Source: Bacteroidota bacterium
Lineage (GTDB): Bacteria > Bacteroidota > Bacteroidia > Bacteroidales > B18-G4
DNA: 33,659 bases
Direction of reading: 5' to 3'
NCBI GenBank assembly: GCA_018831055.1
Contig: JAHJRE010000125.1
Location: forward strand, 1-33,659
The notes beneath the pieces are model-generated. The model saw nothing but the letters and a program-made list of their open reading frames with translations, was not told where the DNA came from and did not search any database. Numbering within the stretch: position 1 is the first letter of the stretch; each line of letters begins with the position of its first letter. Made by a program: the position numbers and the translations under genes. Of the stretch, positions 1-7,962 are shown piece after piece.

Positions 1-142
1 AGATTATAAATAAAGCATTATATGATAATTATACAACAAAAAAACCATCAATTATGTTCACCATAACATAATTTCATCTCAACGTCAAGACTTTGGGGAA
101 CAGGTACAAATACTGCGGGAAAAAATAAATATCTTAAGGGTT

Positions 143-191
143 CAAGTTGCAAGTTGCAGGTTGCAACCTGTAACATGCAACCTGCAACTTG
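143..191. repeat. Palindromic intergenic repeat built of seven heptamers
   Basis: The 49 bases divide exactly into seven 7-base units of the form CAnnnTG or close to it (caagttg, caagttg, caggttg, caacctg, taacatg, caacctg, caacttg). Units reverse orientation near the middle, so 150-165 and 176-191 form a perfect 16-base inverted repeat with a 10-base loop. It lies 8 bases past the marR stop codon. No T-run follows the stem on either strand, so it is not a standard intrinsic terminator. A related element lies at 7861-7930. It resembles REP-type intergenic repeats; family membership is inference. Confidence 0.85.
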
Positions 192-198
192 ATATTAT

Positions 199-654
199 TC
201 ATTCCTGATTATCAGCATATTGAATATCCGATATTTCAAGGCAGTTTATCAAAGTTTGAAGGGCTTCATTAATTTGTTCAACTTTTCCAGGAGGCAATTC
301 TTTTAATCTCATTGCCAGCCGTTCGTGCAAAAGGCCGGGAGAATTTCCTACCACAGCGGCCCCGGCCGAGGTCAGAGCTACATAGTTAGTCCTTTTATCC
401 GCCATTTTGGGGAGTCTGGCGATGTAGCCTTTTTTTTCCAGCCTGCCCACAATTCCTGTAACCGTACTTGAATTAAGCTTCAAAAAACCGGCAATACCCT
501 TCTGGGTTGACATATAACGCTCCTGACCCGACAAATATATCAAACACAGCAATTGAGGTATACTAATACCGTATTCTTTCTGAACCCTTTTGGATTCAAT
601 ATTGAGAGACCTGACAATTTTACGGATGGAAAGAAGAATCTCTGTATAATCCAT
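199..654 (-). CDS. MarR-family winged-helix transcriptional regulator
   Basis: A 151-residue protein, the usual size of MarR regulators, which bind palindromic operators as dimers and often respond to small ligands. Residues 30-100 form the winged helix-turn-helix: a recognition segment around 48-72 (STQKGIAGFLKLNSSTVTG), then RLEKKGYIAR, and the wing with D86, K87, R88 leading to the typical LTSAG at 95-99. Flanking helices would form the dimer interface. It starts 10 bases after the end of the small exported-protein gene on the same strand, so the two are probably cotranscribed. Targets and ligand cannot be read from the sequence. MarR regulators often control their own operon, so the promoter at 1169-1199 is a natural candidate target (inference). 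Confidence 0.88.
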   Translation of the reverse strand: MDYTEILLSIRKIVRSLNIESKRVQKEYGISIPQLLCLIYLSGQERYMSTQKGIAGFLKLNSSTVTGIVGRLEKKGYIARLPKMADKRTNYVALTSAGAAVVGNSPGLLHERLAMRLKELPPGKVEQINEALQTLINCLEISDIQYADNQE

Positions 655-6009: not shown

Positions 6010-7740
6010 CTATTTTTTAAAAAAAGTACCCGAAAATCCCGAACCGGTGAGCACGAAAGAGTATAAACCTGAGGTTAAATGACTGATATTAATAGTTGTA
6101 GTATTCTCAGCCCTTGCCGGATATTCCCCTACCAATAATCCAGAGGAAGAAAATATCCTTATTGTTTCATCACCCGAAAACCCTTTTCTTTCAATATTCA
6201 GGAATAATACAGCCGGATTGGGGAATATTCTGAAAGCCGGATACTCTTCTACCTGCTCAAACCCTGTAGCTATAACCTCAAAACTCTCTTCCTCAAAAAA
6301 AGCTGAACCGCCAAAGGCATGGTCAATACTCTGAACACTCCAGAAATATGTGCCGGGATCAAGTCCTGATATCAGCATATTCGTATCTTGTCCGGCATTG
6401 CCAATAGCAGGAACCATGCGATAGCCCGTACTTACGATCGATAAAGGTGAAATAATATCTGTTCCCAGAATGTCACTACCCAAACGAAGATTATAACTTA
6501 GACCCATCGCGGAGGTTTCGGTATCGGAACCTCTCGACCAGGATAGCAAGACTTTGTCCCCGTCTACCAATGAATTCAAAGTTTGTGGAGCAAGCGGCAG
6601 ATTATTCGACATAAATGCATTGGTACCGAAATTATTACGGTACAATATAGTAACAGGGGTAGAAGTTGCTGACAATCCTGTCAATAGAATATCCATATCC
6701 CCGTCGTTTTCAAAGTCCGCCCATTTTGCAGACACTTTGGTGAACCCGGGAAAAGAAGTTGTAAAATCTTCTTCAAAACCTGTTCCGGTATTTCTCCAGA
6801 TGTTTGTAGTTATCCCTCCGCAACCGGCCGTTTTTCCTGAAATAAATATATCAGGATCTCCATCGCTATCATAATCAGCCCATTCCACTGCGCTCAATGC
6901 AACCCCGAGAATATAGGTAGGAAACTCTATAAACTCTCCATTACCTTCGTTTGTAAAGAACATCAAACGGGGTTCGAGGTATAGGTCGAACCCGGAAAGC
7001 GATATATCAAGATCACCATCAACATCAAAATCAATGAATTCGGCAGTACCGCTGAACAAGCCTTCAAAAACTGTGGGAATTTCCACGAAAACGCCTTGTA
7101 TATTCCGGTATATCTTGCTAATGAATCCACCACCATTATCCCCGGTAAGTAAAAGATCCTGAAACCCATCGTTGTCGTAATCCCCCCAGTCGCAACGGCT
7201 GTTTTGAAGCACGTCGAATTCGGCAAATTCTGTAAATAAACCATTATCGTTTTCAAACAATATCGACATCCATGAGCCTGTCATGAAGAGATCCAGGTCC
7301 GCATCGTTATCAAAATCAACCCAATGCACCTGACCATGGTCAATTCCGGGTAAGCCTGCATTCACCTCTTCAAAAATTCCATTATTATTTGCGTACAGTT
7401 CTGCATAGGGACCGGTATCACTGGCCCCCGTAAGCATTAGGTCCAGATCCCCGTCGATGTCGTAATCTCCCCAGGCAAGGGAAGAGGCATACAATCCAGG
7501 AATACCGGGTTCGATGATAACAAATGATCCTGAATCATTGCGGCAGATTTGGGTGATAAAAGTACCGGAAGCGGTAACACCGGTCATCGCCAGATCGAGA
7601 TCTCCATCGTTATCATAATCACCCCAAACCGAACTGCCCTCCCCCACAGATGTAAGGTTGGCTCCGGCGTCGACAAAAGACTGAGAAAAAAGAAAAGTAC
7701 TGAAAACCGTTAAAAACACAATAGTAAATATCCTATTCAT
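6010..7740 (-). CDS. FG-GAP/VCBS repeat protein secreted by type IX secretion
   Basis: 576 residues from the ATG at 7740, which begins the signal peptide MNRIFTIVFLTVFSTFLFSQ; a start four codons upstream adds nothing. Residues about 30-400 hold seven recognisable acidic FG-GAP/VCBS-type repeats with a core like WGDYDNDGDLDLAMTG, each likely to bind calcium and to form blades of a beta-propeller. A fibronectin III-like region follows (about 400-490; GTYFWSVQSIDHAFGGS). The last 75 residues (from FRIFPNPA to TFFKK, with the GLYSFVLTG strand) look like a type A type IX sorting domain. The protein should pass the Sec system, cross the outer membrane through type IX secretion and stay on the surface or be released. 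Its binding partner is unknown. Confidence 0.85.
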   Translation of the reverse strand: MNRIFTIVFLTVFSTFLFSQSFVDAGANLTSVGEGSSVWGDYDNDGDLDLAMTGVTASGTFITQICRNDSGSFVIIEPGIPGLYASSLAWGDYDIDGDLDLMLTGASDTGPYAELYANNNGIFEEVNAGLPGIDHGQVHWVDFDNDADLDLFMTGSWMSILFENDNGLFTEFAEFDVLQNSRCDWGDYDNDGFQDLLLTGDNGGGFISKIYRNIQGVFVEIPTVFEGLFSGTAEFIDFDVDGDLDISLSGFDLYLEPRLMFFTNEGNGEFIEFPTYILGVALSAVEWADYDSDGDPDIFISGKTAGCGGITTNIWRNTGTGFEEDFTTSFPGFTKVSAKWADFENDGDMDILLTGLSATSTPVTILYRNNFGTNAFMSNNLPLAPQTLNSLVDGDKVLLSWSRGSDTETSAMGLSYNLRLGSDILGTDIISPLSIVSTGYRMVPAIGNAGQDTNMLISGLDPGTYFWSVQSIDHAFGGSAFFEEESFEVIATGFEQVEEYPAFRIFPNPAVLFLNIERKGFSGDETIRIFSSSGLLVGEYPARAENTTTINISHLTSGLYSFVLTGSGFSGTFFKK

Positions 7741-7860
7741 GATATAAAGCAATCTTAGTTATATATTCAGCTATTTAAATATGTAAAAATAGGAATAATT
7801 TGTAAAAAAATTGCCCAGGTGAAAAAAAACTTTTTATAACTATTTGGTAAGGTAACAAAT

Positions 7861-7930
7861 GGTTGCAGGGTGCAAGGTGCAGGATTCAGGTTACAGGTTG
7901 CAGCCTGAAACCTGCAACCTGAATCCTGCT
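7861..7930. repeat. Second palindromic repeat with 7-base period
   Basis: Ten consecutive 7-base units can be read (ggttgca, gggtgca, aggtgca, ggattca, ggttaca, ggttgca, gcctgaa, acctgca, acctgaa, tcctgct). 7879-7899 pairs with 7909-7929 as a 21-base stem with one mismatch around a 9-base loop. It lies just past the dsbD stop codon, the same position relative to its upstream gene as the repeat at 143-191. No T-run follows the stem. Confidence 0.85.
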
Positions 7931-7962
7931 ATCATTCCTGGTACTATATTTTTAACTGAAGA

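Follow-up and report, generated by a model that had tools for sequence, protein, structure and literature searches.

The palindrome at positions 143-191 of the window (the whole stretch of 33,659 nucleotides analysed here) is probably, at about 0.8, the core of an old, non-autonomous copy of a MITE-like transposable element. The filling of this element tends to gain or lose length by 7 bases at a time.

The inverted heptamer array and its flanks in the window

The array consists of the seven units CAAGTTG CAAGTTG CAGGTTG CAACCTG TAACATG CAACCTG CAACTTG. The original prediction took all seven for clean CAnnnTG heptamers, which holds for six of them but not for the fifth, TAACATG. Its 16-base perfect stem was confirmed, with 176-191 being the exact reverse complement of 150-165 and a loop of 10 nt between the arms. 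The array had also been placed about 8 bases past a stop codon, which is correct because 7 bases separate its end from the TGA at 199-201 (minus strand, 151-aa ORF 199-654), and it had rightly been considered not to be an ordinary terminator, as no T-run follows it. Folding of region 105-220 as DNA yielded -21.4 kcal/mol (z -4.7), and none of 200 shuffles folded equally well. The features of the window are listed below.

143-191, no strand assigned: inverted heptamer array (the finding), from sequence and shuffle count
150-165, plus strand: left arm of the 16-bp perfect stem
176-191, minus strand: right arm of the 16-bp perfect stem
109-216, minus strand: probable degenerate MITE-like copy; left limit uncertain (109-116), right limit set at the terminal repeat plus 2 bases
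193-214, minus strand: terminal inverted repeat TGATAATCAGGAATGAATAATA (family pattern TGAGTATCGGGAANNATTAA); score 19.0, p=0.0003, 4 mismatches to GAGTATCGGGAANNATTAA
116-133, plus strand: possible remnant of the opposite terminal repeat, CGGGAAAAAATAAATATC, recognised by eye; left flank marginal (p=0.057)
199-654, minus strand: MarR-family regulator gene (PF01047, E 2e-11); last residues ADNQE and stop codon lie inside the terminal repeat
7864-7929, no strand assigned: second inverted heptamer array, probably another degenerate copy; both flanks together p=0.0029
7926-7947, minus strand: terminal-repeat remnant of the second copy, ATAGTACCAGGAATGATAGCAG; p=0.027 alone
7837-7858, plus strand: weak opposite terminal-repeat remnant of the second copy; p=0.025 alone

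Three CAnnnTG units in a row (at most 1 mismatch) occur at 9 places of the window, compared to a mean of 0.09 in 100 shuffles, and all 9 fall into the arrays at 143-191 and about 7864-7929. A profile of the element ends, trained on a set containing neither window array, was applied for scoring the flanks. Both flanks of 143-191 together reached p=0.0005 against 3779 random places, and the right flank outscored every one of these places. The seven bases outside the remnant at 116-133 do not match the terminal repeat. Copy 109-216 has one clear end only and lacks a core. Within ORF 6010-7752 a 50-nt motif, probably a protein repeat, occurs six times at 6675-7627 with spacings of 135-306 nt.

On the minus strand the right terminal repeat reads GCTGATAATCAGGAATGA, which provides the codons for A-D-N-Q-E and the stop of the MarR-family gene. 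The alignment with the homologue of genome G398 spans residues 1-145 of the 151-aa protein, and the homologue of genome G396 contains internal stops; no run of three CAnnnTG units was found at either locus. Insertion of the element would at times supply a gene with a new C-terminus and stop codon, as may have happened here. Gene C2:2636-3562 of the source genome ends with N-Q-E-E-stop from AATCAGGAAGAATAG directly before its array. This arrangement resembles the read-in at the MarR-family gene, but the flank scores only p=0.085.

Terminal repeats, target duplications and genomic placement

In the source genome (4,186,752 bases) runs of three CAnnnTG units (at most 1 mismatch) were detected at 307 overlapping places, versus 1 for the reversed pattern; the pattern is self-complementary, so that both strands yield identical places. 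The original prediction had proposed such a search and would have ascribed the palindrome to chance or local duplication had only two copies existed. This does not apply, since 307 places are neither a chance product nor two isolated copies.

Reading the arrays in sampled stretches revealed recurring flanks, with TGAGTATCGGGAA at one end and, at the other, the reverse complement of this sequence. The pattern GAGTATCGGGAANNATTAA occurs at 41 places on the plus and 39 on the minus strand (at most 2 mismatches), its reversed form at none on either strand, and the dispersed copies thus have imperfect terminal inverted repeats (TIRs) in common. A total of 26 bounded copies of 116-236 bp could be cut out, the commonest length being 153 bp (5/26); this leaves no room for a transposase gene. 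The pairing of ends was limited to 260 bp, and 12 of the 38 candidate pairs fell outside the set as mis-pairings or owing to more mismatches, length limits or flanks below 20 bases. The window copy is not among the 26. On their inner side the two ends differ (TGATTAATATCA vs ACATTAACACAAA), which distinguishes a left from a right end of the element. Many copies contain an asymmetric core between the heptamer arms, which is itself 7-base periodic. Three clear copies share 97, 94 and 89% identity with a 153-bp query copy across a long interior.

In a 400-kb sample, 11 of 22 arrays are flanked by the TIR at p<0.01. When the 6 training arrays are excluded, 5/16 are flanked at this level, including both window arrays, and 6/16 at p<0.05. 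Accordingly, 11/22 arrays lack the TIR at p<0.01 and 10/22 at p<0.05, the array at C2:2471-2635 being among them. The original prediction had considered an element that recognises the heptamer unit; the shared ends turned out to be a terminal repeat outside 143-191 and not the heptamer.

Comparing the two flanks of each of the 26 copies revealed an AT-rich 8-bp direct repeat located 2 bases outside TGAG..CTCA, with 76% identity versus 50% in shuffled flank pairs (z 7.8); this is the best of 30 length and offset settings, and the next best (z 7.4) represents the same alignment. All 8 positions match in 7 copies, at least 7 in 16 and at least 6 in 18, while 8 copies show 5/8 or less. Most clear copies thus have an 8-bp target-site duplication; the window copy has no recognisable one. 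Together with the TIRs this supports the earlier suggestion that the palindrome is copied by a mobile element. Target duplications of 8 bp suggest a DDE-type enzyme, and a transposase acting in trans at the TIRs would move the element.

An autonomous partner with matching ends was found neither in the source genome nor in three other genomes with the same TIR, all searched as fragmented assemblies. Convergent TIR pairs with at most 2 mismatches in the source genome are short. The partner search, which was not exhaustive, covered nine loci with weak long pairs (at most 3 mismatches in 13 bases) in the source genome and, for pairs with at most 2 mismatches, 23 loci of the three other genomes. 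Three candidates were rejected: L054:1500-2729 encloses the start of a UvrD-type helicase and L057:612-1520 an ORF without a Pfam match, neither including a credible transposase, and L104:329-1520 of another genome encloses an 80-aa ORF whose HTH_Tnp_4 match (20.1 bits) is below the cut-off of 27.

Genome G396 belongs to the same genus (median identity 72% over 88 reciprocal best hits of the sampled sequences) and allowed a comparison of gaps. Region C2:2471-2635 of the source genome comprises 165 bp including an array between two convergent stops, and G396 has no orthologous gap; there the two convergent genes share about 12 bases. As the TIR score at this array is not significant (p=0.43), the site is to be read as a gap filled by an array and not as the insertion of a clear element. 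A second gap of the source genome, C2:33335-33386, which contains a short heptamer-like stretch, is likewise missing in G396.

According to a simple ORF caller, which called 91% of the DNA coding, the midpoints of 21 of 21 classifiable arrays are intergenic; array 143-191 is the one of 22 left unclassified, as the contig begins at base 1. The gaps holding the 21 arrays are tandem (12), divergent (5) or convergent (4), close to the make-up of the intergenic DNA. No density was derived from the 400-kb sample, because its contigs were chosen for holding matches. The clustering within 50 bases of 3′ gene ends that the original prediction asked about is weak: 11/21 arrays lie at most 50 nt from a stop, compared to 8.2 if arrays were placed at random within these gaps (p=0.058). 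With so weak a bias, a terminator role of the CAnnnTG family is not indicated. The element would mainly be a passenger tolerated between genes; most likely it has no function beyond its own spread, and effects on neighbours such as the MarR-family gene arise by chance.

Period 7, further heptamer words and related genomes

When close copies are aligned, just over half of the gaps (124/229) have a length divisible by 7 (7: 61, 14: 43), as anticipated by the original prediction of growth by 7-base units; the other 105 are partly alignment splits of 6+1. The count draws on 25/26 copies, L014 (236 bp) being excluded, and on 122 pairs that are not independent. After insertion, the arms would gain, lose and homogenise 7-bp units, possibly by slippage or by template switching between the hairpin arms.

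The same period dominates the noncoding part of the 400-kb sample, where TRF (score at least 40) reported 35 arrays of period 7, 13 of period 14 and 7 of period 21, but only 0-4 for each of the periods 5, 6, 8, 9 and 10. Among 24 pairs of neighbouring noncoding period-7 arrays (score at least 30), 10 have reverse-complement words, 14 are unrelated and none have the same word, compared to 11% inverted and 11% direct in random array pairs; direct neighbours are undercounted where no spacer separates them, as TRF merges abutting direct arrays. A looser count, including coding DNA and allowing slight overlaps, gave 12/32 inverted and 0 direct pairs. Facing arms are also formed by two further words, AGATCGN and ATTCTGT/ACAGAAT, and no such TIR was seen by eye around either. 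The AGATCGN arrays of the 400-kb sample, whose arms are clear in three of four, are located as follows.

C139:40819-40877, AGATCGN array
C2:6988-7054, AGATCGN array
C75:12459-12520, AGATCGN array
C84:22627-22669, AGATCGN array

Two of the four lie between convergent gene ends. AGATCGN has 59 plus-strand and 55 minus-strand matches in the genome and is absent from the 294 other genomes of the class sample. At C61:6458-6540 an 8-base array (CCCAGTCT) faces a mixed 7/8 CTGGG array, and thus 7 is not a strict rule; the CTGGG/CCCAG pair spans C61:6346-6540. CTGGGNN was dropped as a facing 7-base family, since its arrays either mix 7- and 8-base units or have another word opposite them.

Eight genomes of the same genus or family contain CAnnnTG triples at 5-34 places, versus 307 in the source genome, with reversed controls of 0-19; reversal serves as a fair control within the source genome but not across the phylum, where some genomes are rich in GTnnnAC arrays (G292 115, G030 76, G033 60). 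Among the places listed, the preferred word is CAGATTG in G398 and G400 and CAGGGTG in G401. The gene-end gap C2:6977-7052 and its orthologue at C1:18270-18317 of G396 both hold a 7-base array, of AGATCGG and AGATCTG, respectively, and the changed word hints at genome-wide word replacement. G292, which belongs to a different family within the class, has facing arms of CGTGAGA/TCTCACG and of GGATGAC/GTCATCC on contig C1 (L162-L164), and 9/24 period-7 neighbour pairs of this genome are inverted and 0 direct. Period-7 arrays are also present in G160 and G398, with 0/1 and 0/5 inverted pairs. At a score of at least 40, one noncoding period-7 array each was found in 77 kb of G396 and 100 kb of G271, and none in 100 kb each of G395, G230 and G186.

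Using a 153-bp copy as query, 7 other genomes of the 198 in the order were matched; among the matches listed, only the heptamer part is covered and no TIR was seen. The exact TIR occurs in four contigs of three Bacteroidota assemblies and in two Anaplasma contigs among 84,980 species genomes, a collection from which records near the source genome are possibly left out. One of these three assemblies has 15 places with at most 2 mismatches. Paired TIR ends in the three assemblies enclose other sequences, several of them palindromic, and none of their 23 loci contains a run of three CAnnnTG units. The following regions have the same TIR and different, partly palindromic fillings.

L103:1501-1942
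L108:1501-1690
L112:1501-1681
L113:1364-1520

Differing fillings between the same terminal repeat suggest a shell with exchangeable filling. In a phylum sample the TIR (at most 1 mismatch) is present in 6/395 genomes including the source, once in each of the other five. In 59 other genomes (at most 2 mismatches) it occurs at 61 places versus 42 for the reversed form, with at most 4 per genome, which is near chance.

Alternative explanations, known repeat families and meaning

Several other origins of the arrays were considered. Short palindromes copied by a RAYT transposase (REP, BIME or REPIN), the enzyme named by the original prediction, seem the least probable of all, although the arrays are palindromic, intergenic and abundant and the genome encodes one Y1_Tnp protein. 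The sole PF01797 gene is adjoined by another palindrome: eight 51-nt units come after it, six of them with exact GACCCCGCCGGGGTC, which is GC-rich and restricted to the Y1 locus within the 400-kb sample, and 3,345 bases around the gene contain no run of three CAnnnTG units. Furthermore, clear CAnnnTG copies carry TIRs and 8-bp duplications, which to our knowledge are not expected of Y1 enzymes. In the available text of PMC2817692, a RAYT gene is said to lie in every case between two inverted REPs; here the Y1 gene is not flanked by the repeat in question. As far as the same text goes, REP/BIME sequences are likewise palindromic, intergenic and high in copy number, but they have heads such as GTAG and a RAYT gene flanked by its own REPs, and no TIR combined with an 8-bp duplication is described. 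The only Y1 (IS200/RAYT-type) gene of the genome, at L016:1491-2360 (G000 contig C221, about 1874-2743), represents a separate REP-like system. A role as binding-site array for a nucleoid or regulatory protein, in which selection maintains TGCA or GATC at 7-bp spacing, appears highly improbable. It would fit the palindromic 4-mers spaced by 7 bp and the GATC-type array in the same gene-end gap of G396, but the words vary between species and AGATCGN occurs in 0/294 other genomes of the class. The strong hairpin and the position between convergent gene ends (4/21 CAnnnTG arrays, two of the four AGATCGN arrays) would suit a bidirectional terminator or an mRNA 3′-end stabiliser. This is very unlikely as well, considering the missing T-run, the 5/21 CAnnnTG arrays between divergent genes and the Rfam search of the window, in which no family reached the gathering score.

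Heptamer palindromes might also grow locally between genes, with TIRs acquired later or by a subset only and transposition not being the main source. Half of the sampled arrays have no significant TIR, and by eye none was seen at the facing AGATCGN and ATTCTGT arrays or at heptamer arrays of other lineages. Local growth nevertheless fails to yield a long common interior (97, 94 and 89% identity) or 8-bp duplications, and we regard it as unlikely. Somewhat less doubtful, but still on the unlikely side, is a lineage-specific process that is indifferent to the word and builds facing 7-bp arrays between genes, the MITE being only one carrier; it is suggested by the dominance of period 7, the three unrelated facing words (CAGGTTG, AGATCGN, ATTCTGT), the other words of the relatives and the orthologous gene-end gap whose 7-base array has a changed word.

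For the preferred reading, a MITE-like element with heptamer filling, the nearest precedent of a MITE with an inner tandem array is, from the accessible parts of the sources, BrickBuilt of Porphyromonas gingivalis, an intergenic MITE with 23-nt tandem units between leader and tail (PMC4596501). As described in the part available, it is also a small Bacteroidetes MITE with an inner tandem array, TIRs and no transposase of its own, but its 23-nt units are arranged head-to-tail, its TIRs are of the IS5 type (GAGACC..) and its duplications are inconsistent. The present element, in contrast, has 7-nt units in facing arms, the TIR TGAGTATCGGGAA and an 8-bp duplication; neither 23-nt direct units nor an IS5-type TIR are present.

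The nearest precedents for period 7 are, again from partial texts, the TAACTGA and GGGNATC repeats. TAACTGA heptamers occur in Beggiatoaceae, Cyanobacteria and five Bacteroidetes as intergenic, lineage-specific 7-nt arrays, and TAACTGA indels between two Cyanothece strains are mostly of 7 nt (PMC4679880). They differ in forming direct arrays, with one indirect repeat in the Maribeggiatoa genome, and in lying mostly just upstream of start codons, and the accessible text describes no TIR or target duplication. GGGNATC repeats of Xanthomonas and Nostoc are also intergenic heptamer arrays found genome-wide, many near ORF ends, but are direct and favour four units, a preference linked to G-quadruplexes, with no palindromic form or MITE membership described in the portion at hand (PMC4692102). 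The present arrays share the 7-nt units and intergenic position with this direct-repeat class, but related neighbours are inverted (10/24) and never direct.

Facing heptamer arms inside a MITE are not described in the available parts of PMC4596501, PMC4679880 and PMC4692102. The terms "tandem repeat" and "heptamer" are absent from the accessible text of a review on prokaryotic MITEs (PMC10969869), and no comparable detail was found in that of a paper on Cardinium MITEs (PMC9769881). The literature searched, with most subscription journals out of reach, contained no paper recognised as dealing with facing heptamer arrays inside a MITE. The mobile part of the element is a known kind of thing; its facing 7-base filling is the unusual part. 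It joins two loose ends, heptamer arrays reported from several phyla and MITEs that contain tandem repeats. Since a single genome shows the ends, the target duplication, a missing gap and growth by 7 bp, the questions why 7 and why facing become testable.
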